Part shown: positions 2,248 through 23,068 of the stretch, piece after piece
Position numbering within the stretch: position 1 is the stretch's first letter
Layout of the letters: the number at the start of each line of letters is the position of its first letter
Source: a virus
Virus record (IMG/VR): IMGVR_UViG_3300017714_000163
Span: 1-24,466 of that record
Reading direction: 5' to 3' (one strand)
DNA: 24,466 bases
Notes under the pieces: generated by a model
Seen by the model: only the letters and a program-made list of their open reading frames with translations
Told to the model about the DNA's origin: nothing
Databases searched by the model: none
Made by a program: the position numbers and the translations under genes

Positions 2248-4692
2248 TTATGTTGCACTAGTAATAGTTTCCCAAGCAGATCCGTTATAGAATTGCATTT
2301 TATTCAATGTAGAGTTGTATATAAGAGCACCAGATACAACCTTTCCAACAATTGATGTATTGTAATCTCTATCAACTGTTGTTACTTTTGGTGGTAGAAT
2401 ATAGGAATCAGTTCTAAGCCCAACATCAATAGCACATATGGGAGATTCTGTAGCGAATCCGATTGAACCTTGATCTAGGTTACCATCAATAGATAAAGCA
2501 CCAATTCTAATATTAACTCCACCTACACCATCTAGATCAGATCCCCTAAAAGTAAATCCACTACCAACACTACCGATTGTTAGTGTATCACCAATTGCAA
2601 CAGGATTTTCAATATTTGGACAAGATAAGGAAGTACCAACAGTTAAACTACCAAGAACATCTAAGTCAAAAAGTGTTGAGATTCCAGATGTAACACTGAA
2701 CGTTACATCACCACCAATTTCTAAGCTTCCAGTAACAGTTGCGATGCCACCGACAAATAGATCATTTGTCATGCTCACACTAGAACCAACATATATTCTG
2801 TCACCAGTATCTAAACCACCAGTTAAGTTCAAATCAATAAATGTTGATACGCCGATAGTAGCATCAGCAACATTACATTGGAAGTCCTGAGTTGTTGTTG
2901 TTCCACCTATACTAAGATTTTGAGAAACTTCTAATGCAAAGAATGTAGAAACACCACTAGTGTTTGAAATATCAATACTTTGTGCGGAATTAAAAGAAAT
3001 TGCCCCTAAAATGCTTAAATTATCGTATGTTGAAATTCCAGTCTGAGTGTTATGGTTGAAATCAGTCTGTAAAAGATTTAGATTTGTTAGAACATCTAGT
3101 GTTGCAAATGTAGAAATACCACTTAAGTTTGAAATGGTGACATTATCGGGAAGATCTACTGTACCTGTAAATACAGAGTTTCCACTAACATTAAAGTCGT
3201 TCAGAATGTTAAATTGATATGCAGTAGATACGCCATTATTTGCATCATTATTAAATGTAATTCCACCATAGATATAAACATCATCAAGAAACTCACTTTC
3301 TCCAGTAACTGTTAATGCTGCACCTAGTTTTGTATCACCATTAACGTTTAATCTTTCTGTTGGATTTGTGACACCGATTCCAAGGTTTCCAGCCTTGGTA
3401 AGGGTCATTCTCTCTTCGGTAGCGTCACCTCTTACCCATCTAAAGTTTCCATCTAGATTTGCATTGGGAATATTTCTACCTAAATGATAGACATAATCAC
3501 CGTTCGCATAGTTTGATAGTTCTAGTCTTAGAGCTATTTGTCTCAGTTCTGCTGTACTATTACCAATACCTAAGTCGCCACCAAGATTTAGAGTTGCAGC
3601 TCCACTTTCGGTGAGAATTTCTAGATTAGTTCCTTCAGCCTGATAAAGAACAAGTGTAGATTGTGGATCGGTTGTACCTATTCCCACCCCACCATCAGTG
3701 ATGTTAAAAATTGAACCACTTGTGCCAACTTTGAAGCTATCAGTACCATCAGTAATTACGATCTTACCAACACTTAAGTCACCAACAATGTCAGCTCTGT
3801 TGACAGTGAGTGCGATACCAGCATCAATAATGTTTGCAGATACGAAACCAACTCTAATATCTGGAGTTCCTGTTAAAGTTCTAGCAGTAGATGCAATAGC
3901 AGTAAGTGTTCCTTTGAACTCACCTTCATTAAAGGTGGAGATTCCAGATTCAATTAAAGTATTTGCAAAAATTCTTGCTTCAGAACTTCTTCCTGGTTCG
4001 GGTGTGACAGATCCAATGAATCCACCTAGGGCAGTAACGACACCAGTTAATTGTTGATCTTGTACTAACTTAAAGTCTGGAACGAGAGGAAGTTTATCTA
4101 ATTCTAATCTTGGAATTCTTGCTTGGGTTACAATTCCAGATTTTAGTTCATCTGCATCTAGATCTGTTATGAATGTTCCACTACCAGCAAACCTAGTAGC
4201 AGTTATAGCTGCAGATACAAAAATATTTCCATATGCCATTCCAATCCCAATACCACTCTGTTCAGGATCTCCACCAACTTGAAGCTGATACTGTGGAATA
4301 AGAGTTGCAATACCAACATTTCCACCATTATAGACACTAGAAACACCAATACCAGTGTCTACATCAACCCATTGTGAAGTTGGAAGATCTGATAATTTAG
4401 ATCCATCACCAAAATAGGTGACAATTCCACTAAATGAAGTTACAATACCTTGATTAAATTCAAAATTACCAACAACTACACTCTTACCAACTCCAGTTTC
4501 AAAAGATGCGCCAGCAGTAACACGAACTTCAGTAAACGTACTTAATCCACTAAATGATGCCTCCGTTCTAACATCAAAAGATTTGGTTGGTACTGATGTG
4601 CCAATACCAACCAGAGAACCATTGACGACTAATGATTGATCAGACGCCTGAAGGCCTTCTCTAAAATTAAATACCTTCTTAAAATTTGCCAT
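2248..4692 (-). CDS. Tail fibre / adhesin-like structural protein (814 aa)
   Basis: A long beta-rich protein, low in Cys and charge, built from recurring units. VGIGT-x-x-P motifs occur four or more times (near the N-terminus as LVGIGTSVPT, and centrally as GVGIGTTDPQ and NLGIGVTNPTERLNVNGD). The second half repeats GISTF-x-x-L-x-V every 25-35 residues. Such units form trimeric beta-strand fibres in phage and bacterial adhesins. The C-terminus (IYNSTLNKMQFYNGSAWETI) is a motif seen at the ends of many adhesins. I see no S74 chaperone domain. The likely role is a virion fibre that contacts the host. It follows the larger fibre gene and has its own CTAAATA site, so it is a late gene. No Shine-Dalgarno sequence is visible. 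Confidence 0.75.
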   Translation of the reverse strand: MANFKKVFNFREGLQASDQSLVVNGSLVGIGTSVPTKSFDVRTEASFSGLSTFTEVRVTAGASFETGVGKSVVVGNFEFNQGIVTSFSGIVTYFGDGSKLSDLPTSQWVDVDTGIGVSSVYNGGNVGIATLIPQYQLQVGGDPEQSGIGIGMAYGNIFVSAAITATRFAGSGTFITDLDADELKSGIVTQARIPRLELDKLPLVPDFKLVQDQQLTGVVTALGGFIGSVTPEPGRSSEARIFANTLIESGISTFNEGEFKGTLTAIASTARTLTGTPDIRVGFVSANIIDAGIALTVNRADIVGDLSVGKIVITDGTDSFKVGTSGSIFNITDGGVGIGTTDPQSTLVLYQAEGTNLEILTESGAATLNLGGDLGIGNSTAELRQIALRLELSNYANGDYVYHLGRNIPNANLDGNFRWVRGDATEERMTLTKAGNLGIGVTNPTERLNVNGDTKLGAALTVTGESEFLDDVYIYGGITFNNDANNGVSTAYQFNILNDFNVSGNSVFTGTVDLPDNVTISNLSGISTFATLDVLTNLNLLQTDFNHNTQTGISTYDNLSILGAISFNSAQSIDISNTSGVSTFFALEVSQNLSIGGTTTTQDFQCNVADATIGVSTFIDLNLTGGLDTGDRIYVGSSVSMTNDLFVGGIATVTGSLEIGGDVTFSVTSGISTLFDLDVLGSLTVGTSLSCPNIENPVAIGDTLTIGSVGSGFTFRGSDLDGVGGVNIRIGALSIDGNLDQGSIGFATESPICAIDVGLRTDSYILPPKVTTVDRDYNTSIVGKVVSGALIYNSTLNKMQFYNGSAWETITSAT

Positions 4693-4727: not shown

Positions 4728-7700
4728 TTACTTGATACGAATGATATAGAAGAGACCCATGTAAGGAGGAAGGTTTCTATTAGTTCCAGATTGACCATTG
4801 GCGACGATCGCAACATTATGCCCGTGTGAACCAGCATTGCCCATGTTATGTCCATGATTAGGAGTATTGGCAACATTACCACCATGACTGTGATTTCCAG
4901 CTGTTTGCGTATCACCGTGATTGTGATTTGCTTGATCTGGAATATTATGAGTATGGTTGGCTGCGTTGGCAATGTTGTGTCTGTGCTGACCACCACCAGG
5001 AATATTATGACGGTGATTACCAGCGTTGTTTACACCGTGTCTATGGTTTCCGTTATAACTGGTGCTTGCGTTCTGACGGTCAGTTCTAGAAGATCTAGAG
5101 TTTCTATTACCATATTCAGCCTGGTTGTTTCTTCTCTGATAAGTATGTCTATGAGCACCACCATTATTTGTGCTGTGACCATGTTGCCCTTCGTTACCAG
5201 TTTCACCGTGTCCGTGGTTGCCTACGTTACCAGTTTCAGCGTGGCCGTGACCACCTTGCCCACCAGTTTCACCACCGTGAGTATGTTCACCAGCAGAAGG
5301 AGTTTCATGCCCGTGAGCAGCTTGATTTGGAATCTCATGACCGTGAGTACCACCTGCAACCACATTATGAACATGGTTTGGTTGATTACTGACGTTAGTA
5401 TTATGACCGTGTGAGATAGTAACAGAATCTTTTGTACCGCCAGTTGCACCTCGATTATAAAGATTACCAGCGGCAATTCCTATTCTATTTCTTAAATCAG
5501 GAAGTAAGAATGTAGTTCCAGATGGGTTTGCACCGTATGGGAACGAGAGTCCACCATTTGTTAGGTTGGCATATAGATCAGCATAAGCTGACTGACTTAG
5601 ACTTGAACCATCACAGAGATGCCAGTATTCATTATTGGTAATGAAGGATGATGTACCAGCCCACTGCACAATACCGCCAATAGGTGGTAGGTTGGGAACA
5701 ATAAGTTGGTCAGCAACAATAGTTCCAGTAACGTCCATGTCACCCTCAACTCTGGTTAAACCAGAGGCAGCCTTCAGAGTTAGGTTCTCACTGTTTTGTG
5801 ATTCAATTCTTGCTGTGCTAGAACCAGTACCAACTAAAATATCGTGAGCGTCAATACCAAGGAGAGCATCAATTTGTCCACCAAAAGTACCAACACCAGA
5901 AACATTTAGAGAACCAGTTATGGAAGCACTTCCACTAGAACTAAATCTTCCAGTGACTTCTAGATTTGCATCAACTTTAGTATTGCCAGTAATATTGACA
6001 ACATTATTGACTCTTAGTGGACCATCAAACTGAGACAATAGTGTCTTAGATGGACCACCCTCGACAAGTAATCTCTGTCTAACAGTAACTTCATCGAAGA
6101 TAACAGATAGAACTGAAGTATCTTCACCTCTAATTGATGGAATTGGTGCATCAAACGTTGTTTCTTCACCAGTAGATGGGTTGATAATCTTGTTACCAAT
6201 GAAGAAGTCACCATCATTATTCATGGCGGTGTATACAACGACACCACCAGATCTCTTCTGGGATTGTGTTAGGAACTCTTCTCTTCCAGTTAGTGTAATA
6301 TTTTGGACCTGAGGTAGACCAGTTGAGTAGTTACCAGGACCATAACCTAGATATTCAAAAGTATGACCAGAACCTCTTAGAATTGAAGGTCTACGAAGTT
6401 CAACACCTCTAATATTGATTCTCCTAACTCTTGAACCCGATTGATGACTTGCAGTTTGAGAAGCTACATATCCTCTGATTACGGTAAGTTCATTGTTAGA
6501 AGATCCAGATAGGATTGAGTCTGCGATTCTCATGATCTCAGATCCAACCTGAATATAAGATCCGATTGGGAATCTCTCCGCAGTTCCTATACCAGAGTTT
6601 GAAAGTTGTAGAATAATTTTGTTATCTAATTCTGCACTTCCTAGATCATTACCAAGAATTGCATCATCATGTAAGAAGAGGTTTGTTACTCTAGAACCAA
6701 TAGATTCAGTATCAGCATCAATTGATCCACCTTTTGCATCATAGATTGTTGGTAGTATGAATCTTGGTGCTGTTTGTGTAACAGGAGTTGATCCAGCAAC
6801 AGTGAATGTAAGAATACCAACTCTTTCTAGAACAGTAAATCCACTGAAACTATTGTTGTTAGTATCAACGATATTGAAACTACCACCAGCAACTAATCCA
6901 TGTGCTTCATTTGTTTGAATCGTTTGAACATTTGCAACAATTGCACTAACAGTCTTAATACCAATAGAGCGGCCACAATCAACTAGATATTGATCATTGA
7001 CAGGATTTGGATCACCTGAAGTTACAGCGAAGGAAACTTTATTGCTTGCTGGAGTTGCAAGAACACGATAGGCGTTTGTTGCAGTGCTACCAATACCAGT
7101 TATTTGAACTGAATTGTTGACGAAAGTAGAGATACCAGCAGTTGTAACTGTGATTTCAGCACCAGTAAATCCATCAAGATCTAAAGTTTCTGCACCATAA
7201 CCAGAACCAGGATTAATTATTTGAACATTCTCTACAGCACCACCTGATCCAACAGTGACTCTAGATGTTGCACCATCCCAGTTGGAAGTACCATCATTCA
7301 TCAACTTGACGTTGTAGTAATCACCTTCAGTGAATCCACTGCCACCAGTTAATGTTGCATAAGTTGCAATACCAGAGAAACCATGTGGACGATCTAAAGT
7401 TACAGTTACAATACCAACAACATCATTTCTTTCAAAACCAATAACTGTTCTACCGAATCCAATAACTCTAGAAATTTTATCAATACTCTCTCTAGTTACG
7501 CTATTTTCTGGATCATCAATTGCAACATCACCAATTGGTGATCTCTTTGCAAAAGACTTAGCCGCTAATGGGTTTGCAAGAACATTATCTCTATCTAACT
7601 GAGGATAATATTTCTCAATGTTAGGTAGATACTTTAGGTTATCAAATTCTTCACTGATTTGGTTATCGGCACAAAGAACGTTGAAGTGATAGATACCATC

Positions 7701-10601
7701 ACTAATACCAGGATTATGCTTTTGAATTACTTCAGATCTGTATAGTGAAATATTCTTATTGTTATCAACTCTCTGGTATCTTGCCATGAGTTGAGTTCTG
7801 GTGTTCATGTCAGATGTGAAATCACCAGTTGATCTACCAATATTATTAATATCAGTAGTACCATATGTAAAAGTCAGATCATCAATGACTCCAGTAACTG
7901 TAAAGGTGCCATTAAAGCCACTCTTCGCAATACCAGCAGTGTTTGTTGTACTCTGTACGTCAATAATTTTAACTACATCACCAGTAAATAGTTCATGTGG
8001 TTGATCAACTCTAATTGTAACTGTTGAACCACTTGCGGCACAAGTAGAAATATATCTTGGATTTCTATCGAAGTCAAAATCATTTACATCAATAGAAGAA
8101 ATAGTAAAGTCCTGATCAGTTCTACTTGATGTGTTATTACTATCCTGTAGAATAAATCCGTTTACTGGATCTCTACCGATCGTTGATTCTTTTGGTACAA
8201 AATATCTTAGTTTATAAACTTTATCACCAATAGATCTGTTATCAGAAAGTCTCTTGATAAATGTTTCACTGGTTTGAGCACCAATACCTGTTACACCTCT
8301 AGAGACAATCTCAGTGAAAATACTATTGCCTTCCTTACAATGAATAAACCAGTTGTTCTGATTTGGATCAAATAGTACGGGACATCCGATCTCGTTTGCA
8401 GCTTTATCTGATACGCGACTTTCAACTCTTAGACCAGTTCCACCATAAACTGTAATTGCTTCTCCTCTAAGTGCATCACTGGAAGTTGAAGCGACACGGA
8501 ATAGAGCAAGGTTAATACCATCTACGATAGCATAATATACTCTATCTTCCGTTAAATTCTCTGGTAAATCACCATCTTCACTTATAACACGAACCTTCTC
8601 ACCAGTTACAAGATTATGATTAACCTGACAATTAAATCTACCCTCTGAATCTAATCCAACAATTTTAGTAATTCTTTCTTTAGATCCTTGGCCAGTTGCA
8701 ATCGTGGTTGCTGCACCGATTTTATTATCGGTAATTAAAATCGGTGCAGAATATGCAGTTGAACCAGCGCCACTAGTAAAATTAACAAATAGTTCATCAT
8801 TTTCTCTGGCACCAATACGATAACCTTGAGAAATAATTGCAGGTGGGTTATCTTGATCTGTAAATCCAAATAGGTAGAGATGACTATTAATACCTACTTG
8901 CTTTGTTTTATCAACATCAATAGTGAATAGGTCTATATTAGATTCACCTTGTGGAACCGTTTGTGGTGCAATAATACCAGTAACGTATCCCTGGTCATCC
9001 TTTGTAAATGCCTCGGCCTTAAATCCATCAGATATTAAAGCGATCTGTCCAAAGTTGGAGTTAGAGTTAGTAATAGAAGCATCACCACCAGACTCACAAA
9101 GGAAATGACCATTAAATCCAATAGCAAACACAGACACAACCTGAATGATTGAATCATTCACCATCTTAATGTGTGAAGTCTCCCATCCTTTACGATAAAC
9201 TGCTCTACTGTCTAGGTGATAAACAGTATTAGAGTTTGTAGAACTAGATTCCGTTGCTAATTGAGAACCAGTTACTTTAGTGATGGAAATACCATCATAT
9301 GTTCTAGATACTGGATTATACTTAACGAAAGCACGGTCATCTTTTTGTAGTGATACGGCCGTAAACTGTGCCACAACCATTGACTTAAAGCCAGAGGCAG
9401 TTGCACCATCAGCCAGCATACCATTCATGCCGAAAACGGATCTGAGAGACACGTTAAAGACGTATGGTGATGCACCAGTAACAGTATCAGTTTCGATCGT
9501 TACAGTGGCACCAGAGACATTTCCAGTGGCAAGCAGAGTGGTTTGTGCATCTGCTAGTAGATATCCAAATGTAGTTGCATCTGTAACTGAAGTAACGAAT
9601 GTTGAAACATTATAATCAGCAGGCGTCACACCTCTAATCTTAACTGGTGTACCAACTGTTAGATTATGTGGATCATTTGTTTCAACAGTAATCAAAGTGG
9701 ATGGTGTAACACCATCACCTGATTTAATCGTCTTGATTGCAATTGGATCTGCTTGGAACGCACCAACGATTTCCCATTCAACTCTACTCTTAGAGAATCC
9801 TAGTGGTTGATCTGGGAACTTCTGATCAATATTTCTACCAGATGCTTCATTAAAAGCATTTGATATTTTACTATAATACATGTCAAGGTCAGTTAGACCT
9901 GTACCTTCAACGATATTGACACCATCAGCAAAGCCAAAACAAGTTAGTTTGTGGTGAGAGAATGTTGGTGCTGATTTATTAATGACCGAGAAATCTACAG
10001 GGTCTGTATAGACCTGAGAATTCAAATCTCCATCAAAGAAAGTAAAGTCTCTAAAGTAACAAGTACCAGTTAGACGGATTACAGCACTTTCTGGAGCTGA
10101 GTCATCTGTTGGGTTTGGAACATATAGTGGTTTAATTTTGGTTTTTCTTAAGTCAAAACCAACAATAGCAGTACCTCTAGGAAGAACAACGCCACCTCTG
10201 TGGTCGTTAAACTTATAGAGCATATTATCTTCGACACCCAAATCGAAGACTGAAGATAATGATAGGGTTAATATCGATTGAGCGAGAGTTTCTGTACCAG
10301 CTGGAGAGATTGCTTTTGCAGTACCATTATCATCTTTAATTCTAAATCCTGGTCTATTATCAATAAAGTGAACACCAGGAAACAGTAGAATCGTAGTTCT
10401 ATCAAAGAGATCGTTATCGTTTCCTCTTACATAGGAAAATCTCGCAGATTCTAGAAGTGCTCTCTGAATAGTTTTGAAGGGTTGAGAGAGTGAATTACCC
10501 TGATTTTCTATACTATCAGTGGCACCGATATCGTTGGGATTCACATATAGAATCTTACCCTCGGTGTTCTTAATAAAATTCTGGAGTTTACTAAGAGGCA
10601 T
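4728..10601 (-). CDS. Giant fibre protein with collar domain and HxH tip (1957 aa)
   Basis: Largest gene in the window. The N-terminus (ILYVNPNDIGATDS, then FKTIQRALLESARF and TILLFPGVH) looks like the entry to a pectate-lyase-type right-handed beta-helix. The body has Ig-like and beta-helical repeats, including motifs such as INPGSGY. Residues about 1637-1715 form a phage tail-collar domain (PPIGGIVQWAG, WHLCDGSSLS, FLLPDLRNR), as in T4 gp12. After that come 17 HxH motifs (residues 1731-1928) and a hydrophobic end (PPYMGLFYIIRIK). In T4 gp37 the HxH motifs of three chains bind iron along the needle tip. The role is probably a trimeric receptor-binding fibre at the baseplate. The start ATG at 10601 has no clear ribosome site; a CTAAATA lies 33 bases upstream. 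Confidence 0.82.
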   Translation of the reverse strand: MPLSKLQNFIKNTEGKILYVNPNDIGATDSIENQGNSLSQPFKTIQRALLESARFSYVRGNDNDLFDRTTILLFPGVHFIDNRPGFRIKDDNGTAKAISPAGTETLAQSILTLSLSSVFDLGVEDNMLYKFNDHRGGVVLPRGTAIVGFDLRKTKIKPLYVPNPTDDSAPESAVIRLTGTCYFRDFTFFDGDLNSQVYTDPVDFSVINKSAPTFSHHKLTCFGFADGVNIVEGTGLTDLDMYYSKISNAFNEASGRNIDQKFPDQPLGFSKSRVEWEIVGAFQADPIAIKTIKSGDGVTPSTLITVETNDPHNLTVGTPVKIRGVTPADYNVSTFVTSVTDATTFGYLLADAQTTLLATGNVSGATVTIETDTVTGASPYVFNVSLRSVFGMNGMLADGATASGFKSMVVAQFTAVSLQKDDRAFVKYNPVSRTYDGISITKVTGSQLATESSSTNSNTVYHLDSRAVYRKGWETSHIKMVNDSIIQVVSVFAIGFNGHFLCESGGDASITNSNSNFGQIALISDGFKAEAFTKDDQGYVTGIIAPQTVPQGESNIDLFTIDVDKTKQVGINSHLYLFGFTDQDNPPAIISQGYRIGARENDELFVNFTSGAGSTAYSAPILITDNKIGAATTIATGQGSKERITKIVGLDSEGRFNCQVNHNLVTGEKVRVISEDGDLPENLTEDRVYYAIVDGINLALFRVASTSSDALRGEAITVYGGTGLRVESRVSDKAANEIGCPVLFDPNQNNWFIHCKEGNSIFTEIVSRGVTGIGAQTSETFIKRLSDNRSIGDKVYKLRYFVPKESTIGRDPVNGFILQDSNNTSSRTDQDFTISSIDVNDFDFDRNPRYISTCAASGSTVTIRVDQPHELFTGDVVKIIDVQSTTNTAGIAKSGFNGTFTVTGVIDDLTFTYGTTDINNIGRSTGDFTSDMNTRTQLMARYQRVDNNKNISLYRSEVIQKHNPGISDGIYHFNVLCADNQISEEFDNLKYLPNIEKYYPQLDRDNVLANPLAAKSFAKRSPIGDVAIDDPENSVTRESIDKISRVIGFGRTVIGFERNDVVGIVTVTLDRPHGFSGIATYATLTGGSGFTEGDYYNVKLMNDGTSNWDGATSRVTVGSGGAVENVQIINPGSGYGAETLDLDGFTGAEITVTTAGISTFVNNSVQITGIGSTATNAYRVLATPASNKVSFAVTSGDPNPVNDQYLVDCGRSIGIKTVSAIVANVQTIQTNEAHGLVAGGSFNIVDTNNNSFSGFTVLERVGILTFTVAGSTPVTQTAPRFILPTIYDAKGGSIDADTESIGSRVTNLFLHDDAILGNDLGSAELDNKIILQLSNSGIGTAERFPIGSYIQVGSEIMRIADSILSGSSNNELTVIRGYVASQTASHQSGSRVRRINIRGVELRRPSILRGSGHTFEYLGYGPGNYSTGLPQVQNITLTGREEFLTQSQKRSGGVVVYTAMNNDGDFFIGNKIINPSTGEETTFDAPIPSIRGEDTSVLSVIFDEVTVRQRLLVEGGPSKTLLSQFDGPLRVNNVVNITGNTKVDANLEVTGRFSSSGSASITGSLNVSGVGTFGGQIDALLGIDAHDILVGTGSSTARIESQNSENLTLKAASGLTRVEGDMDVTGTIVADQLIVPNLPPIGGIVQWAGTSSFITNNEYWHLCDGSSLSQSAYADLYANLTNGGLSFPYGANPSGTTFLLPDLRNRIGIAAGNLYNRGATGGTKDSVTISHGHNTNVSNQPNHVHNVVAGGTHGHEIPNQAAHGHETPSAGEHTHGGETGGQGGHGHAETGNVGNHGHGETGNEGQHGHSTNNGGAHRHTYQRRNNQAEYGNRNSRSSRTDRQNASTSYNGNHRHGVNNAGNHRHNIPGGGQHRHNIANAANHTHNIPDQANHNHGDTQTAGNHSHGGNVANTPNHGHNMGNAGSHGHNVAIVANGQSGTNRNLPPYMGLFYIIRIK
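4818..5411 (-). repeat. HxH metal-ladder repeat region (17 motifs)
   Basis: Seventeen His-x-His motifs, mostly in the frame x-H-[GRTV]-H-x, recur about every 10 residues (about 30 bases) over residues 1731-1928. One break of roughly 30 residues, rich in Arg, Asn and Ser, lies after the ninth motif. Between motifs the linker is mostly G/N/A/Q. The repeats are at protein level; the DNA copies have diverged. Confidence 0.9.
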
Positions 10602-13330: not shown

Positions 13331-15928
13331 TTAATATCCTCCTCCGTATCCACCACCACCACCCGAAGGTGGAGAAGGAGATGGACTAGGTGTTGATGGT
13401 GTAGTGGGTGTTGATGGTGTTGGTGTATTAGTAGAAGTTGATTGAACATTCACATCAGTATTTGTTGGTATATTTAATGCATTAGATGATGGAGTTATTG
13501 GATCAATTGCTTCTTGAACTGTTGAAGATGATGATTCGCTCGATGATGTAGTATTTCTGATTACAGTAGATCCTAGTTTAGACAAACTTTCTGCTACTGT
13601 ATCATAAATCAGCGCATGTGGTCTATCTGAATGAGCAGCACCAACCATCTTCACTCCTTTATGTACATGATATGGACCGTAATATGGTTGACCGTTCACA
13701 TAACCAACCAACTCTTGAGTTTTTGATGTACATTGTATGACAGAAAGTGTACTAGAACTATACCTACTTTGTTCTTCTACAGTAAATTCAGATGCCTCAG
13801 TGAAAACTATACTAGGTCTCAATCTAACACCATTACCAGTCTTACTATTTATTGTAATATCTGGAATTTCAACAAATCCACATTGCTCACCTTTAATGAC
13901 AATCTCGACCAATTGGCCAGAATCAGTATATCTTCCTTCCAATAAGAGACCTGGCATAGGTGGAGTAACAATAAATGTATCATCCTGAGCATAACCATAT
14001 CCAGTAGTAATGACACTGATTTTATCTAAACATCCAACGACAGGAACAGTGACAATCTCATCGCCACCACCGCCGCCGCTACCGCCATCACCGCCGTTTC
14101 CACCGTCACCATCATCAGGGAGGCCAGGATCAACGGTTCCACCACCATCAGTAGCATCATCATCTCCACCACCATCAGGTAAATCGATGATGATCTCATC
14201 ATCTCCACCACCAATAGGTTTTTGAGCATCGTCATCAGGATTATCATTATCAGATCCATCAGGAACATCAATGTATCCCCAACCAGGATTTGTGATAATA
14301 ACACCTGTCAATCCACCATCAATGGGGTCAATTTCAGCATAACCAGCTCCACCAGAACCATAATTGCATGGATCATCAAATGCAACGAATGGAGGATACT
14401 TATATCCCAATCCTTTCTGAGAAAGTAAAACTCCGATGATATTACCTTTTTTACTAATAACTGATGATGCTAATGCCTCTGCGACTGGATTACCACCAAA
14501 AATACTAACAGTTGGTGGGGTGCATTCATCACCACCTACAATATCACAAGCACTAGGACCAGTAGTATCTCCCAATCCTGCTTCTTCTAACCACCCAAGA
14601 GCTCCCGTCGTTGGGTCTGGTATTTGTAACTCAGACAAGAATTTATTAAAATTATCTTTTTGTTGTTTTGTTGGACCACCCCAAGGGCTAGAATTGAATT
14701 TTGTAACTTCAGAACAGTTTTTAGTCAAACACAAGAAACCAATAATACCAAGAATCTGATCAATGACATCCATGATGGCACCGCCAATATCCAACACACC
14801 ATCCAAATACTTACTAATCTCCTCCATAGCACCATTTAATGCGCCTTGCAATGCACCCAAAACATTATTAATTAAAGCATTTATAAATTTTTCAGCAGAA
14901 CATATTGGAGCAGCTGCTATTTTATCAAGAAGAGCAGCAAGGAAGTCACCAATCAGTCCAGGAAGTTCATCTATCGTGATTTGAAAGATGCAAAATATAA
15001 TATCAAGAATCTTTGCAAGAATTGAGTCTGCTAAATCCTTTGCAACGTCTCCCAAGATAAGATCTATTGCATTAGAGACTAATGTTCTAATTTGTTTAAG
15101 TACCCAGTTTCTAACTCTTTGTATAAGTGTTCTTAATACTGCAGCGATATTATCAATGATCTTGTTAATTTGTCCAGCAAAATCATATACCTTATTAACA
15201 GTGCCAAGAACATATGTTGCATAGTATTTTTTTACACCGTTTAGTATGCTTGCAACCTTTGATATTTCAACTTGAATTCTAGAAATAGTGTCGGTTCCAC
15301 AATTATTCGGACCACTAAATTCCTCCATCAAGTTATACATCTCCCAAGTATTTAAATTACTAGGGACAAAATTTGAATAAGATGTTGAGTCAGAAACTAC
15401 GGTAGTTTTAAATTCCCCTGATGGATTAGATTCTTTACCCTGTTTATTTGTATTTGATTTTAAATCTGGACTTTTACCTTCTGATGCCACTCTCCAAGCT
15501 GGAAGATTGTCGGTATAAGGAAATGATGAGTCAAATGGATTAATTCCACTATTTGCATCTTGATACTCAGCAGAACTTACATTTGGAGCATCTTTATCAA
15601 AATAACCATATATACCATCAATGACTGGTTGTTGTGCATCATCACCGTCTGCAAAAAATCCACTTACAAGTTCACCACCAACGATTCCACTAGAAGCATT
15701 ATTTCCTTGTCCCATACTGGTGGGTCTTTTAATAATTGCCGTTGGTAGATCTTTATCTGGAAGTATTGATCTATCTTCAGTATGATATCCTAAAATTCTA
15801 ACAGGTACTCTCTCTCCCCAGTTATAACCTTCATTGATAGTTTTACTGAACGGCACTTTGCCAATCCAATATCGATAACCATCACGGCCAAAAAAAGAAC
15901 TGTTGAGTAAAGAGTCTGTAACTGACAT
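13331..15928 (-). CDS. gp5: gp5-like baseplate hub/spike protein (865 aa)
   Basis: Residues about 13-110 are a gp5-type OB-fold domain: FFGRDGYRYWIGKVP, GYNWGERVPVRILGYHTED, LPTAIIKRPTSMGQ, GGELVSGFFADGDDAQQPVI. Residues about 250-420 are amphipathic helices (LKQIRTLVSNAIDLIL, LIGDFLAALLDKI). Two or three beta units with a G-[LWY]-GY motif follow (KGLGYKYPPFVAF, NPGWGYIDVP, TGYGYAQDD). An Asp/Gly-rich linker separates them, then PYHVHKGVKMVGAAH, and a Ser/Thr/Pro and poly-Gly tail. T4 gp5 has a lysozyme domain after the OB-fold; I do not see one here. The likely role is the central spike/hub subunit binding gp27. The GAGGA ribosome site lies in the last codons of the 75-aa gene. Confidence 0.75.
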   Translation of the reverse strand: MSVTDSLLNSSFFGRDGYRYWIGKVPFSKTINEGYNWGERVPVRILGYHTEDRSILPDKDLPTAIIKRPTSMGQGNNASSGIVGGELVSGFFADGDDAQQPVIDGIYGYFDKDAPNVSSAEYQDANSGINPFDSSFPYTDNLPAWRVASEGKSPDLKSNTNKQGKESNPSGEFKTTVVSDSTSYSNFVPSNLNTWEMYNLMEEFSGPNNCGTDTISRIQVEISKVASILNGVKKYYATYVLGTVNKVYDFAGQINKIIDNIAAVLRTLIQRVRNWVLKQIRTLVSNAIDLILGDVAKDLADSILAKILDIIFCIFQITIDELPGLIGDFLAALLDKIAAAPICSAEKFINALINNVLGALQGALNGAMEEISKYLDGVLDIGGAIMDVIDQILGIIGFLCLTKNCSEVTKFNSSPWGGPTKQQKDNFNKFLSELQIPDPTTGALGWLEEAGLGDTTGPSACDIVGGDECTPPTVSIFGGNPVAEALASSVISKKGNIIGVLLSQKGLGYKYPPFVAFDDPCNYGSGGAGYAEIDPIDGGLTGVIITNPGWGYIDVPDGSDNDNPDDDAQKPIGGGDDEIIIDLPDGGGDDDATDGGGTVDPGLPDDGDGGNGGDGGSGGGGGDEIVTVPVVGCLDKISVITTGYGYAQDDTFIVTPPMPGLLLEGRYTDSGQLVEIVIKGEQCGFVEIPDITINSKTGNGVRLRPSIVFTEASEFTVEEQSRYSSSTLSVIQCTSKTQELVGYVNGQPYYGPYHVHKGVKMVGAAHSDRPHALIYDTVAESLSKLGSTVIRNTTSSSESSSSTVQEAIDPITPSSNALNIPTNTDVNVQSTSTNTPTPSTPTTPSTPSPSPSPPSGGGGGYGGGY

Positions 15929-19517: not shown

Positions 19518-21224
19518 TTATTGATAATTTATGTTATAAATTGATGTTGCTAGACTTCTATATGGATTCAACGTATCATATGTTAATTGGTTTGGAATTT
19601 CATTTCCTGATGTAAGTGGGTATTTCTGTTCAAGAGTTTGAATAGCATCTCTGACATCCTGTGGCATTTCATTATCTTTTTCATCATCAAAGTCTGGTCC
19701 AGCAGACATTAGTCTATTGGAAGTTTGTTTATCCGTGCTAGGAACCTTAACATTTTCCTGATGAAGATGTGGCACTGCAGCTGCAGTTGGCGGTGCAGCA
19801 ACACCCGTACCTCTACCTTTAGCACCAACACCTGGTGTAAAACCACCCTCTTCGGGTTTCTTCATCAATCCTAGACCTTGTAGGAAGTTTGTGATTGGAT
19901 CATTCGCAAATCCAAACAGGTTATCCATACCAAGTGGATCATACAAACTATCCAAACCACCTGTTACGACTTGACCTATTTGTTGACCTATAAAACCACC
20001 ACCAATAGCACCAGCAGCTCCAACTAAAAGTGCTCCTGGTCCAGTTGTAAGACCGAGAAGACCTGCAAGACCACCACCTAAAGTTGCACCTTTAAGAGTT
20101 AATAACATTTCTGGTATTACAGGCACAACTGCCTGAGTTGGCGACATTCCCTGATCTAATCTACTTTTTATTTTTGATACTACGAACGCTCCTTTTAATA
20201 CTCCACCAAGAGCACCAAGAAATCTTGCATTACCTAGTAATGATTTTAATCCACGAAGAACTCCTCTAGGTTTGCTAAAGAATGCAAGTGGGTTTTTAGG
20301 AGTAACTACCTTGGGAGGAGTTGGCTTTGGTGATGGTATACTAGGTGCCCTACCTGGAGTAGTCCCTTGCATTTGAGGACCAGTCGGTTTTCCAGTAGGA
20401 CCGAGAATTGTTCCACCAGATCCTGGGGGTCTACCAGGAGCTACTCCAGGTCTTGTAGCACCAGGAACTGTAGTAGCACCAGGTTTTCCAGGTTTTGGTG
20501 TAGCACCAGGAACTGTAGTAGCACCAGGTTTTGGTGCTACAGCAGGAGGTTTTGGTGTTACTACAGGAGGTTTTGGCCTTAGTGCATTAAATAACGACGT
20601 AAAAGGTTTTAATAGTAAAAATTTTCCAAGTCTGAAAGTTAATCCACCAATAGTGGTAATTAAACCAATCAATCCGCCATTCAATACTAAAAATGCTGCG
20701 CCAGCCGCTGCTAATGCAGTGGCAAGTTCACCTTTTAATTTTTCAAATTCAGATTTATTTCCATTTGCATCAGCCTGAAGCATTCTGAGGAATTTAGTGG
20801 TCAACCAACCACCAAAAAGAAATAGTAATGCTTTTTTTAAGTCAAATAATTTACTACTTACAGCACCCTTTACTGCATTAATAGGTTTTGTTATTGCAGC
20901 AGTGAGTCTTGACTCTAAAATATTTTCAGATCTTCCAAAAGCAGTTCTTTCAGCGTCTCGTAATCTTTCACGCTTAGATGCATCTGCTTGAGATAATTCT
21001 GCCCTTGTCTCACCACTTATGGCTCTCGTAAGAGTTTCAAGATTTCTACCAATAGACTCAACGTTTCTATTGATAGATGTTAATTGTTTTCCTAAAAAAG
21101 TATATACTTCTACTTGCTGCCTATTATTCTGAGTCTCAACTTCCACAAGACTTTCACGCACCGAAGAAGCTGTAACTGTGCTTTGTGATGGTAATAGTTT
21201 TGATGTGTTGAGTCTAGATGCCAT
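19518..21224 (-). CDS. Tape-measure-like tail protein, gp29-like (568 aa)
   Basis: Residues 28-110 are heptad-rich helix (VEVETQNNRQQ to RNLETLTRAIS). At 132-150 there is LLFLFGGWLTTKFLRML. Long Ala/Leu/Gly-rich hydrophobic helices follow (about 165-215). A Pro-rich tract with PKPGATTVPGAT units comes next, then more Gly/Ala hydrophobic stretches (about 370-430) and an acidic tail. Coiled coil plus hydrophobic segments, a length close to T4 gp29 (590 aa) and a position after gp26 fit the tail-length determinant, which also enters the host envelope. No motif proves it. Its ATG lies within the last codons of the 53-aa ORF (11-base overlap). Confidence 0.6.
   Translation of the reverse strand: MASRLNTSKLLPSQSTVTASSVRESLVEVETQNNRQQVEVYTFLGKQLTSINRNVESIGRNLETLTRAISGETRAELSQADASKRERLRDAERTAFGRSENILESRLTAAITKPINAVKGAVSSKLFDLKKALLFLFGGWLTTKFLRMLQADANGNKSEFEKLKGELATALAAAGAAFLVLNGGLIGLITTIGGLTFRLGKFLLLKPFTSLFNALRPKPPVVTPKPPAVAPKPGATTVPGATPKPGKPGATTVPGATRPGVAPGRPPGSGGTILGPTGKPTGPQMQGTTPGRAPSIPSPKPTPPKVVTPKNPLAFFSKPRGVLRGLKSLLGNARFLGALGGVLKGAFVVSKIKSRLDQGMSPTQAVVPVIPEMLLTLKGATLGGGLAGLLGLTTGPGALLVGAAGAIGGGFIGQQIGQVVTGGLDSLYDPLGMDNLFGFANDPITNFLQGLGLMKKPEEGGFTPGVGAKGRGTGVAAPPTAAAVPHLHQENVKVPSTDKQTSNRLMSAGPDFDDEKDNEMPQDVRDAIQTLEQKYPLTSGNEIPNQLTYDTLNPYRSLATSIYNINYQ
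20454..20532 (-). repeat. 34-bp perfect direct repeat in the tape-measure-like gene
   Basis: Two identical 34-base copies at 20454-20487 and 20499-20532 have a period of 45 bases, exactly 15 codons. They encode the KPGATTVPGAT unit. Weaker Pro-rich copies (PKPPVV, PKPPAV) follow the same theme on the N-terminal side. Confidence 0.9.
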
Positions 21225-21375
21225 TTGCTTGCTTACGTTTCAGTTCTTCCTCTTCCAGGTATGCTAAGAGAAGTGAAACATACACTTCTCTTTCCCATGG
21301 CATCATATTCTCTAACTCACTTAAACTATATTTATGATGCTGCATCAAGGCAAAATTAGTTTGATAGTACGACAT
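21214..21375 (-). CDS. 53-aa gp51-like ORF, probably the frameshift extension of gp26
   Basis: Begins ATG at 21375 (MSYYQTNFALMQHHKY) and ends in TAG at 21214, with the core motif LSELENMMPWEREVYVSLLL followed by a Glu/Lys-rich helix. Short helical units with an ER-x-x-Y core are typical of the second part of tail-assembly chaperones and of hub-assembly proteins; the gp51 name is tentative. No ribosome site precedes the ATG (CACATACTTCTCTG). The frame is open upstream to 21432, through the end of gp26, and includes a slippery site. Hence it may not be made alone but as the C-terminal part of a gp26 fusion. It overlaps the next gene by 11 bases. Confidence 0.7.
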   Translation of the reverse strand: MSYYQTNFALMQHHKYSLSELENMMPWEREVYVSLLLAYLEEEELKRKQANGI

Positions 21376-21395
21376 CAGAGAAGTATGTGCCAGGG

Positions 21396-22112
21396 CTATG
21401 CGAAAAAAGATGCTAACCCTTCCAGAACAACTTCACTTTCTACCTTAGTATTTGGATTTTCGACCTTCAAAGTATGAGTCAATTTTGGCATAGATGCAAA
21501 AAACTTTTCAACTTTAGAGAATTGTGATGATGTCAAATTACCAATAAATTCATCTAATTCTTTTTTAGTACAATCTGAAGTATTCCAAGATTCTTCTTCA
21601 GAATAAATCTGATCAATGCAGTTTGCAATAATATCAAATCCTTGATCAACGTTAATATCTTCACCATTGAAGTTTGTTTTTACAAACTCATCTAGTGATG
21701 GATACTTCATTCTTAGTGTAAGTTCGTCATCTAACTGAATGTCCTTTTCATGACCTTCCTGATTAGTGACACTGATATCATCAATATTAATTTGAACCTC
21801 AACTTCAGTTTGATTGTCATCAGGACAAGTGACAATTACATCAATAAGTTCTCCAACAGATTTTGCACGAACATTTAAGAATAGATATTCAATATCAAAA
21901 GTAGAAAGAGAATCTACTTTCACACCTCTAGAAAGAATACAAGCAGCGAGAACATTTTTCACTGCCATTGTAATTTGTTTCATATCTTGACTTTCTAAAG
22001 CCATGATAAGAACTTTTTCTTCCTTTACCAAAAATGGACGATACTTGATTTTTTTCTTAATGGAAGGCAACTCAAGTTCATAAACAGGAGTGTTAGACTT
22101 TGGTAAAGGCAT
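21396..22112 (-). CDS. gp26: gp26-like baseplate hub subunit (238 aa)
   Basis: An acidic, mostly helical protein starting MPLPKSNTPVYELELPS, then KIKYRPFLVKEEKVLIMALES, and ending VVLEGLASFF. This layout (a short strand entry, a KYRPFLVKEEK motif, and a final L-x-GL-x-x-FF) is that of T4-type gp26 baseplate hub proteins (T4 gp26 is 208 aa). In the hub it may serve, like other tail chaperones, to bind the tape measure. The ATG at 22112 has no ribosome site; a CTAAATA lies 27 bases upstream. The last codons TCT TTT TTC GCA TAG hold a slippery heptamer. Confidence 0.8.
   Translation of the reverse strand: MPLPKSNTPVYELELPSIKKKIKYRPFLVKEEKVLIMALESQDMKQITMAVKNVLAACILSRGVKVDSLSTFDIEYLFLNVRAKSVGELIDVIVTCPDDNQTEVEVQINIDDISVTNQEGHEKDIQLDDELTLRMKYPSLDEFVKTNFNGEDINVDQGFDIIANCIDQIYSEEESWNTSDCTKKELDEFIGNLTSSQFSKVEKFFASMPKLTHTLKVENPNTKVESEVVLEGLASFFA
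21402..21408 (-). other. Candidate -1 frameshift slippery site T TTT TTC
   Basis: The heptamer fits X XXY YYZ in the gp26 reading phase, two codons before the gp26 stop. After a slip, translation reads CGC ATA GCC CTG and onward, through the ATG of the 53-aa ORF, with no stop. The predicted product has 237 + 9 + 53 = 299 residues. Confidence 0.6.
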
Positions 22113-22150: not shown

Positions 22151-23068
22151 TCAACTGACAACTGAAGAAGAAACACTAGCATCACTAATTCTAACTAGAT
22201 CAGAGCCTTTTCCAGATGTAGGTTCCCAACCACCTTTTGCTGCAAGAATGAAATTATCAATAGATTGTTGAGTATAATTAATAGTCTCACCATTATTTGA
22301 AGTGAAGTACTTTGCTAATTTAGAATTGTATTCACCAGTATCGTTTTGAGTGGCGGCTGAATATGCATTTGCTTTACTAAATGCATCACCAAGATTGTTG
22401 TTTTCTGAATTGAAATTAAATGGATATGGTGATTTAGTACTTTGTGCAGCCGCTGTCATGTAATGTCTTTCATAATTAAAATCAATACTAATTCTTAAAA
22501 TAGAGTTTTGACTTTCATATCCTATTGGAGTAGATGTAATTGAAACAGGAAATAACCCAACAAAACTATATGCAACTGCTGCTTTATAATCTCTATCAAA
22601 TTTATAAATTCTCATACTATCACACTTATATCCAGTAGTACCTCTTGGATATCTCATTCTATAAAAGTATCCAGGATTCTTTGGATTTCCAGCTGCACCA
22701 TTGTTTGGGATGCCATTACCACCAGTGATATATGCCATCCAAGATTCAAAAAATCTTAGAACTTGATATTGACTATCACAATAGAAACTTAAATTTATGT
22801 TATTAAATATTTTGGTGTGTGCATACTGTTGTTGTACACCAGTGAAATTGCCTTCAATAGTTGTAGTTGCTACACTAGATCCAGGTAACACAGCATTGTA
22901 ACATAAAAGACCCGCAGTGTTATTGTAAAAACTTTTCAAGACTCCATTTTCAGCAAAATTTTGCTTCATGCCAAATGGAAAATCTTGAAATTGTACCTCA
23001 TAATGAGATGACTGAGCCAAATCACTAAAAGTATTTTTGATATCTGAAATTTTTTTTGGTCCTGGCAC
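22151..23068 (-). CDS. gp54: gp54-like baseplate tail-tube initiator (305 aa)
   Basis: The tail-tube fold is suggested by HYEVQFQDFP near the N-terminus, then LLCYNAVLPGSSVATTTIEG, a strand with INLSFYCDSQYQVLRFFESW, and YKCDSMRIYKFDRD followed by YSFVGLFPVSITSTPIGYES and an SIDFNYERHYM strand. gp19, gp48 and gp54 share this fold. The length fits gp54 (T4: 320 aa), not the shorter tube protein. The partial gp48-like gene on the other strand makes gp54 the better name. The C-terminal third is Asn/Ser-rich. It starts with GTG at 23068; AGG lies about 10 bases upstream. Confidence 0.62.
   Translation of the reverse strand: MPGPKKISDIKNTFSDLAQSSHYEVQFQDFPFGMKQNFAENGVLKSFYNNTAGLLCYNAVLPGSSVATTTIEGNFTGVQQQYAHTKIFNNINLSFYCDSQYQVLRFFESWMAYITGGNGIPNNGAAGNPKNPGYFYRMRYPRGTTGYKCDSMRIYKFDRDYKAAVAYSFVGLFPVSITSTPIGYESQNSILRISIDFNYERHYMTAAAQSTKSPYPFNFNSENNNLGDAFSKANAYSAATQNDTGEYNSKLAKYFTSNNGETINYTQQSIDNFILAAKGGWEPTSGKGSDLVRISDASVSSSVVS

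Follow-up and report, generated by a model that had tools for sequence, protein, structure and literature searches.

Tail assembly chaperones of T4-like phages were identified in 2022 by Vladimirov, Gautam and Davidson (Virology 566:9-15), according to two later papers that cite this work (PMC10885494, PMC12846349). The first of these credits it with the observation that some T4-like phages do without a frameshift and carry a longer fusion gene beside a short one (PMC10885494), and the second with slip sites of the poly-T kind in the TAC-N genes of T4-like phages (PMC12846349). A 2016 review had listed T4 as the exception to tail-chaperone frameshifting (PMC5009743). Earlier still, a comparison of T4-like genomes from 2010 recorded two oddities of gp51: the cyanophage protein has about 20% of the normal length, and the protein is "missing" in Aeh1 (PMC3037559).

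Here we analyze a viral DNA of 24,466 nucleotides (IMG/VR record IMGVR_UViG_3300017714_000163), referred to throughout as the window. A first-pass annotation, made from the sequence alone, predicted a programmed -1 frameshift that fuses gp26 to a small downstream open reading frame, and knew of no such chaperone described for T4-like phages. The latter statement has to be withdrawn in view of the 2022 study. As the citing papers portray that study, it already contains the main idea, and the gain of the present work is breadth, controls, stimulators and detail; the Shine-Dalgarno-like element, the covarying stem and the quantitative controls reported below may be new.

The gp26 locus and its predicted slip site

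The gp26 gene of the window (22112..21396, minus strand) encodes 238 residues matching PF12322 (T4_baseplate, E 3e-74) and phrog_150 (E 1e-79). A tail tube protein gene lies directly upstream of it (22151..23068, minus; phrog_45 E 6e-36, PF23849 E 2e-16). The 3' end of gp26 reads TCT TTT TTC GCA TAG, which places the slippery heptamer T TTT TTC (21408..21402, minus) in the gp26 phase, with TTT at 21407-21405, TTC at 21404-21402 and the 0-frame TAG (21396..21398, minus) one codon past it. In the -1 frame, no stop intervenes between 21432 and a TAG at 21216-21214. Within this frame, the extension beyond the slip site (21214..21402, minus) contributes 62 residues, RIALAHTSL...KRKQANGI, so that a -1 slip would yield a product of 237 + 62 = 299 residues. 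The junction reads ...SFF-RIALAHTSL-MSYYQT..., and the junction-spanning peptide of the predicted fusion is SFFRIALAHTSLMSY. On the heptamer, its phase, the open -1 frame, the fusion of about 299 residues and the junction, the first-pass annotation was accurate base for base.

That annotation started its small open reading frame, of 53 codons (21214..21375, minus), at the ATG of MSYYQ and noted that it lacked a ribosome site. Indeed, no Shine-Dalgarno sequence precedes the ATG at 21375 (GCACATACTTCTCTG-ATG). As a stable start, however, this ATG does not hold up, since S-T4, whose gp26 is 81% identical, has none at that place.

The extension would encode a T-like domain (the T domain, discussed below), and the next gene after it (19518..21224, minus; 568 residues) had been described as tape-measure-like. 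This placement is plausible, on weak matches: the window copy gives a tape-measure match of just E 0.78, and its counterparts in relatives reach E 7e-10 with phrog_58 and E 2e-5 with phrog_305. The ATG of the 568-residue gene sits inside the T-domain reading frame, with an 11-nt overlap (21214-21224) and no Shine-Dalgarno sequence, and several relatives show overlaps of 8-11 nt at the corresponding place. This arrangement suggests translational coupling. Because the gene starts within the T-domain reading frame and has no Shine-Dalgarno sequence, its translation may be tied to the frameshifted ribosomes that read T. Elsewhere on the minus strand, the window also encodes an 865-residue baseplate hub/tail lysozyme-like protein (13331-15928; phrog_1922 E 2e-76) and, in the same region, a 1957-residue open reading frame that is possibly a tail fibre (4728-10601).

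An AlphaFold2 model of gp26 built from 100 sequences has a pLDDT of 92.6, compared to 42 for a model from the single sequence. Searching the PDB for the fold of this model returned no significant match, the best among chaperones being the HK97 tail chaperone (HK97 gp13, 2ob9; E 1.5, TM 0.41 of the target), and a sequence search found no solved relatives. By analogy, gp26 is predicted to be the short form of a tail assembly chaperone (TAC-N), with a role like that of lambda G.

Conservation, coding and predicted stimulatory signals

To place the window among its relatives, we used 377 loci from IMG/VR scans and phage records, each covering the whole gp26 end plus 200 bases or more of what follows, which form 84 clusters at 70% protein identity. 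They include phages of Synechococcus and Prochlorococcus, Sinorhizobium phages phiM7 and phiM9, Stenotrophomonas phage YB07, Pseudomonas phage pf16, Aeromonas phage Ah1 and Vibrio phage phi-Grn1. An in-phase T TTT TTN stands at the end of gp26 in 375 of the 377 loci and in 83 of the 84 clusters. It is spelled TTTTTTC in 69 of these 83, and the 0-frame stop follows one codon later in 74. At the other codon positions of gp26, the same motif occurs only 20 times in 18,992 (0.1%).

The two exceptional loci differ in kind. Vibrio phage Kuja (locus L007, around 3735-3747) has C CTT TTT in place of the heptamer and keeps the T domain in the -1 frame; a single-tRNA slip (P-site T TTT) is possible there. 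A Stenotrophomonas phage (L237) lacks one T of the run found in its near-identical sister (L236), so that gp26 reads through in a third frame; the missing T is probably a sequencing or assembly error.

Beyond the slip site, the -1 frame behaves as coding sequence. Over codons 1-18, the -1 frame has a pN/pS of 0.13, compared to 1.38 and 1.80 for the 0 and +1 frames, respectively. Stops are absent from the -1 frame over the same stretch in all 83 clusters, while the +1 frame has them in 77 of 83. An alignment of relatives, which the first-pass annotation had put forward as the check on its prediction, thus bears it out: the heptamer, its phase and the stop-free -1 frame are conserved, and purifying selection extends across the junction.

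We also found signals on either side of the heptamer. In the window, a Shine-Dalgarno-like GGAAGGG (21423..21417, minus), a predicted stimulator, lies 9 nt upstream of the first slippery codon. Across clusters, an element of this kind at 8-10 nt upstream has a mean duplex energy of -6.45 kcal/mol, compared to -4.62 ± 0.18 kcal/mol under synonymous resampling. It is encoded mainly by LEG codons, and the Glu codons at this position are GAG in 40 of 57 cases, against 27% in gp26 bodies.

Downstream, the 60 nt beginning 9 nt past the slip fold more strongly than the synonymous null (z -1.79 ± 0.18), an effect that fades with distance. In 43 marine relatives, a 9-bp stem starts 7-8 nt past the heptamer. 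Its paired positions covary, with 15 double-changed cells compared to 3.9 in shuffled data (covariation 0.115 versus 0.028). One pair is seen as U-A, G-C and A-U, although changes at its 3' base alter the residue encoded in the -1 frame (Glu, Ala or Val); the pairing is therefore kept at the expense of the encoded residue. The downstream RNA of P-SSM2 folds with a z of -4.07. That of the window folds no better than its shuffles (z -0.46), and no stable stem-loop was found in it, leaving the heptamer and the Shine-Dalgarno-like element as the window's signal. At the level of sequence, these comparisons show that the signal is present and conserved, that the -1 frame is coding, that the upstream bases are biased towards a Shine-Dalgarno match and that the stem covaries.

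Readings of the junction and a proposed mechanism

Most database records that we viewed annotate the small open reading frame, as gp51, as a separate protein, which would require its own start or termination and reinitiation past the gp26 stop. A start codon overlapping that stop (xxATG) does occur in 12 of 83 clusters, including phiM7 and phi-Grn1, and in such lineages reinitiation might serve as an additional route. The window has no such overlap, and its small open reading frame has no Shine-Dalgarno sequence. More generally, 34 of 83 clusters contain no ATG, GTG or TTG in the first 13 codons past the slip, which rules out independent initiation as a general route. A ribosome site with an independent start in relatives was one of the findings that the first-pass annotation had expected to speak against it; a start within those 13 codons is preceded by a 5-nt Shine-Dalgarno match in only 1 of 83 clusters. 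Furthermore, the -1 frame is under purifying selection from the heptamer onwards, ahead of any start codon, and a separate protein would leave the heptamer unexplained. We regard this reading as very improbable.

Two other explanations address the heptamer itself. RNA polymerase could slip on the T run and produce mRNAs with fused frames by transcriptional realignment, and heptamer conservation by itself would fit this as well as it fits ribosomal slippage. Yet 71 of 83 clusters have a run of exactly six T and none has more than eight, and T runs of such length are short for polymerase slippage. The fixed codon phase, the Shine-Dalgarno-like element at fixed spacing and the downstream stem are features that stimulate ribosomes, and we consider polymerase slippage very improbable. 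Alternatively, TTT TTC might persist for no other reason than a need for two phenylalanines close to the C-terminus of the protein, without any frameshift. The motif GLxxFF is conserved as protein, T4 gp26 included, so conservation of the FF pair alone proves nothing. The choice of codons is another matter. Synonymous change at the two slippery codons is 0.00 and 0.01, compared to mostly 0.2-0.4 nearby (79 independent pairs of relatives), so that synonymous alternatives are nearly absent, and other FF pairs in gp26 use TTT TTC in only 9 of 92 cases. In all 83 clusters, the codon that precedes the pair has T as its third base, where codon usage predicts 48.7 (log10 P -20). T4 gp26, which still ends in GL-KE-FF, spells the same pair TTC TTT. 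With the -1 frame coding as well, a purely protein-level explanation is already contradicted, and its chance is close to nil.

Given the conservation of the heptamer, the selection on the -1 frame and the lack of a general independent start, the predicted frameshift between gp26 and the small open reading frame is well supported. It is very probable, judging from the sequences, that gp26 is a short chaperone and that a -1 slip on T TTT TTC gives its 299-residue long form. In the proposed mechanism, a minority of ribosomes translating gp26 would slip back one base at the heptamer, where both Phe tRNAs could re-pair (TTT/TTC to TTT/TTT). These ribosomes would bypass the TAG one codon on and append the 62-residue C-terminal domain. 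Slippage would be made more frequent, as in E. coli dnaX, by the Shine-Dalgarno-like element 8-10 nt upstream and, in many relatives, by a stem-loop 7-8 nt downstream. If the two products act like lambda gpG/gpGT and P2 gpE/gpE+E', the tape-measure protein would be coated by many copies of the short form and a few of the long one, which would recruit tail-tube subunits before leaving. Ribosome slippage in infected cells, its frequency and the chaperone function are inferred.

The T domain, gp51 and comparison with known systems

The 53-residue part of the -1 extension matches phrog_634, "baseplate hub assembly catalyst" (E 2e-25), and the extension aligns with the C-terminal tails of gp51 from the T4 clade; Pfam and NCBIfam offered no convincing name for it. 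On this similarity, the -1 extension is a T-like domain at the end of the long form and a homologue of the C-terminal part of T4 gp51. T4 gp51 itself matches PF12322 over residues 1-201 (E 4e-52) and phrog_634 over residues 147-246 (E 1e-23), while T4 gp26 matches PF12322 alone (E 9e-64), and the two proteins match each other. By homology, therefore, T4 gp51 is a gp26 paralogue carrying an extra T domain. The same two products that a frameshift would make from one gene would thus come, in the T4 clade, from the paralogous genes 26 and 51. Having short and long paralogues in T4 favors the G/GT-type chaperone reading of the first-pass annotation. In addition, T4 gp51 is needed for assembly yet absent from the particle (PMC3004832), which fits a chaperone role.

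Five of five T4-clade genomes contain both genes and lack the heptamer: T4 (locus L009, 3303-4729), RB43, a Krischvirus, Acinetobacter phage KARL-1 and Aeromonas phage 31. Loss of the heptamer where a separate gene encodes the long form provides a natural control for the frameshift. In a tree of the shared domain, which is unrooted and whose long branches leave the inner order uncertain, gp26 and gp51 of the T4 clade form one group (99/98) that excludes every frameshift member, and the frameshift side includes the Straboviridae Ah1 and phi-Grn1. This topology fits the origin of T4-clade gp26 and gp51 from one duplication in the T4 lineage. In Aeh1 (L397), the T domain lies in the -1 frame behind the T TTT TTC of gp26, and in Ah1 (L008) it lies in the -1 frame behind the gp26 heptamer, unannotated.

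These observations point to a broader scheme that we consider likely, with less assurance than the frameshift itself. T4-type phages outside the T4 clade would have in common a single chaperone made by frameshifting, with a rate of slippage that depends on a signal tuned in each lineage: the Shine-Dalgarno-like element, T TTT TTN and a covarying stem kept at amino-acid cost. The T4 clade would have escaped once, by gene duplication. A single escape would explain both oddities of 2010, why gp51 looks "truncated" in cyanophages and why it seemed "missing" in Aeh1 (PMC3037559). On the frameshift reading itself, the small cyanophage "gp51" would be the C-terminus of a frameshift product and not a truncated gene, and annotation in hundreds of genomes would be affected. 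None of the records of frameshift-type relatives that we viewed joins the two frames, and some leave the small open reading frame out, while the P2 entry has the join. The frameshift also bears on the 2016 statement that T4 is the frameshifting exception (PMC5009743), and frameshift versus duplication offers a natural series for how a protein ratio is kept.

The gp26 frameshift is thus a well-supported case of a known phage mechanism, and the view that gp26 and its long form work like G and GT, which concerns their mode of action and not common descent, is also well supported. The closest described system is the pair of T4-like chaperones gp26 and gp51 reported in 2022, apparently, from what later papers say of them, the same proteins: a short and a long form with one common domain. 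The T4 clade makes them from two separate genes, whereas the window and its relatives have one gene and a -1 slip. P2 and lambda G/GT likewise combine a short form with a -1 extension, and do so ahead of the tape-measure gene, a position that is plausible for the window. The annotated P2 site, T TTT TTG, has the same geometry as that of gp26, although P2 gpE has 91 residues and gp26, at 238, is far longer. We rejected the T domain as a homologue of P2 E', to which it has no detectable homology (hhalign E 0.13). Phage Adele (Vandenendeviridae/Andersonviridae) has a chaperone ahead of its tape-measure gene, a -1 frame open across the locus and a poly-T slip motif, but this motif is GTTTTT and the phage families differ from those of the gp26 relatives (PMC12846349). 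Outside phages, E. coli dnaX joins an upstream Shine-Dalgarno sequence, a slippery heptamer and a downstream stem-loop into a three-part signal like that of the gp26 relatives (PMC5600365). Its heptamer is A AAA AAG, compared to T TTT TTC in gp26, and a stem-loop of the dnaX type is lineage-dependent at gp26 loci, weak or absent in the window and present in marine relatives such as P-SSM2.
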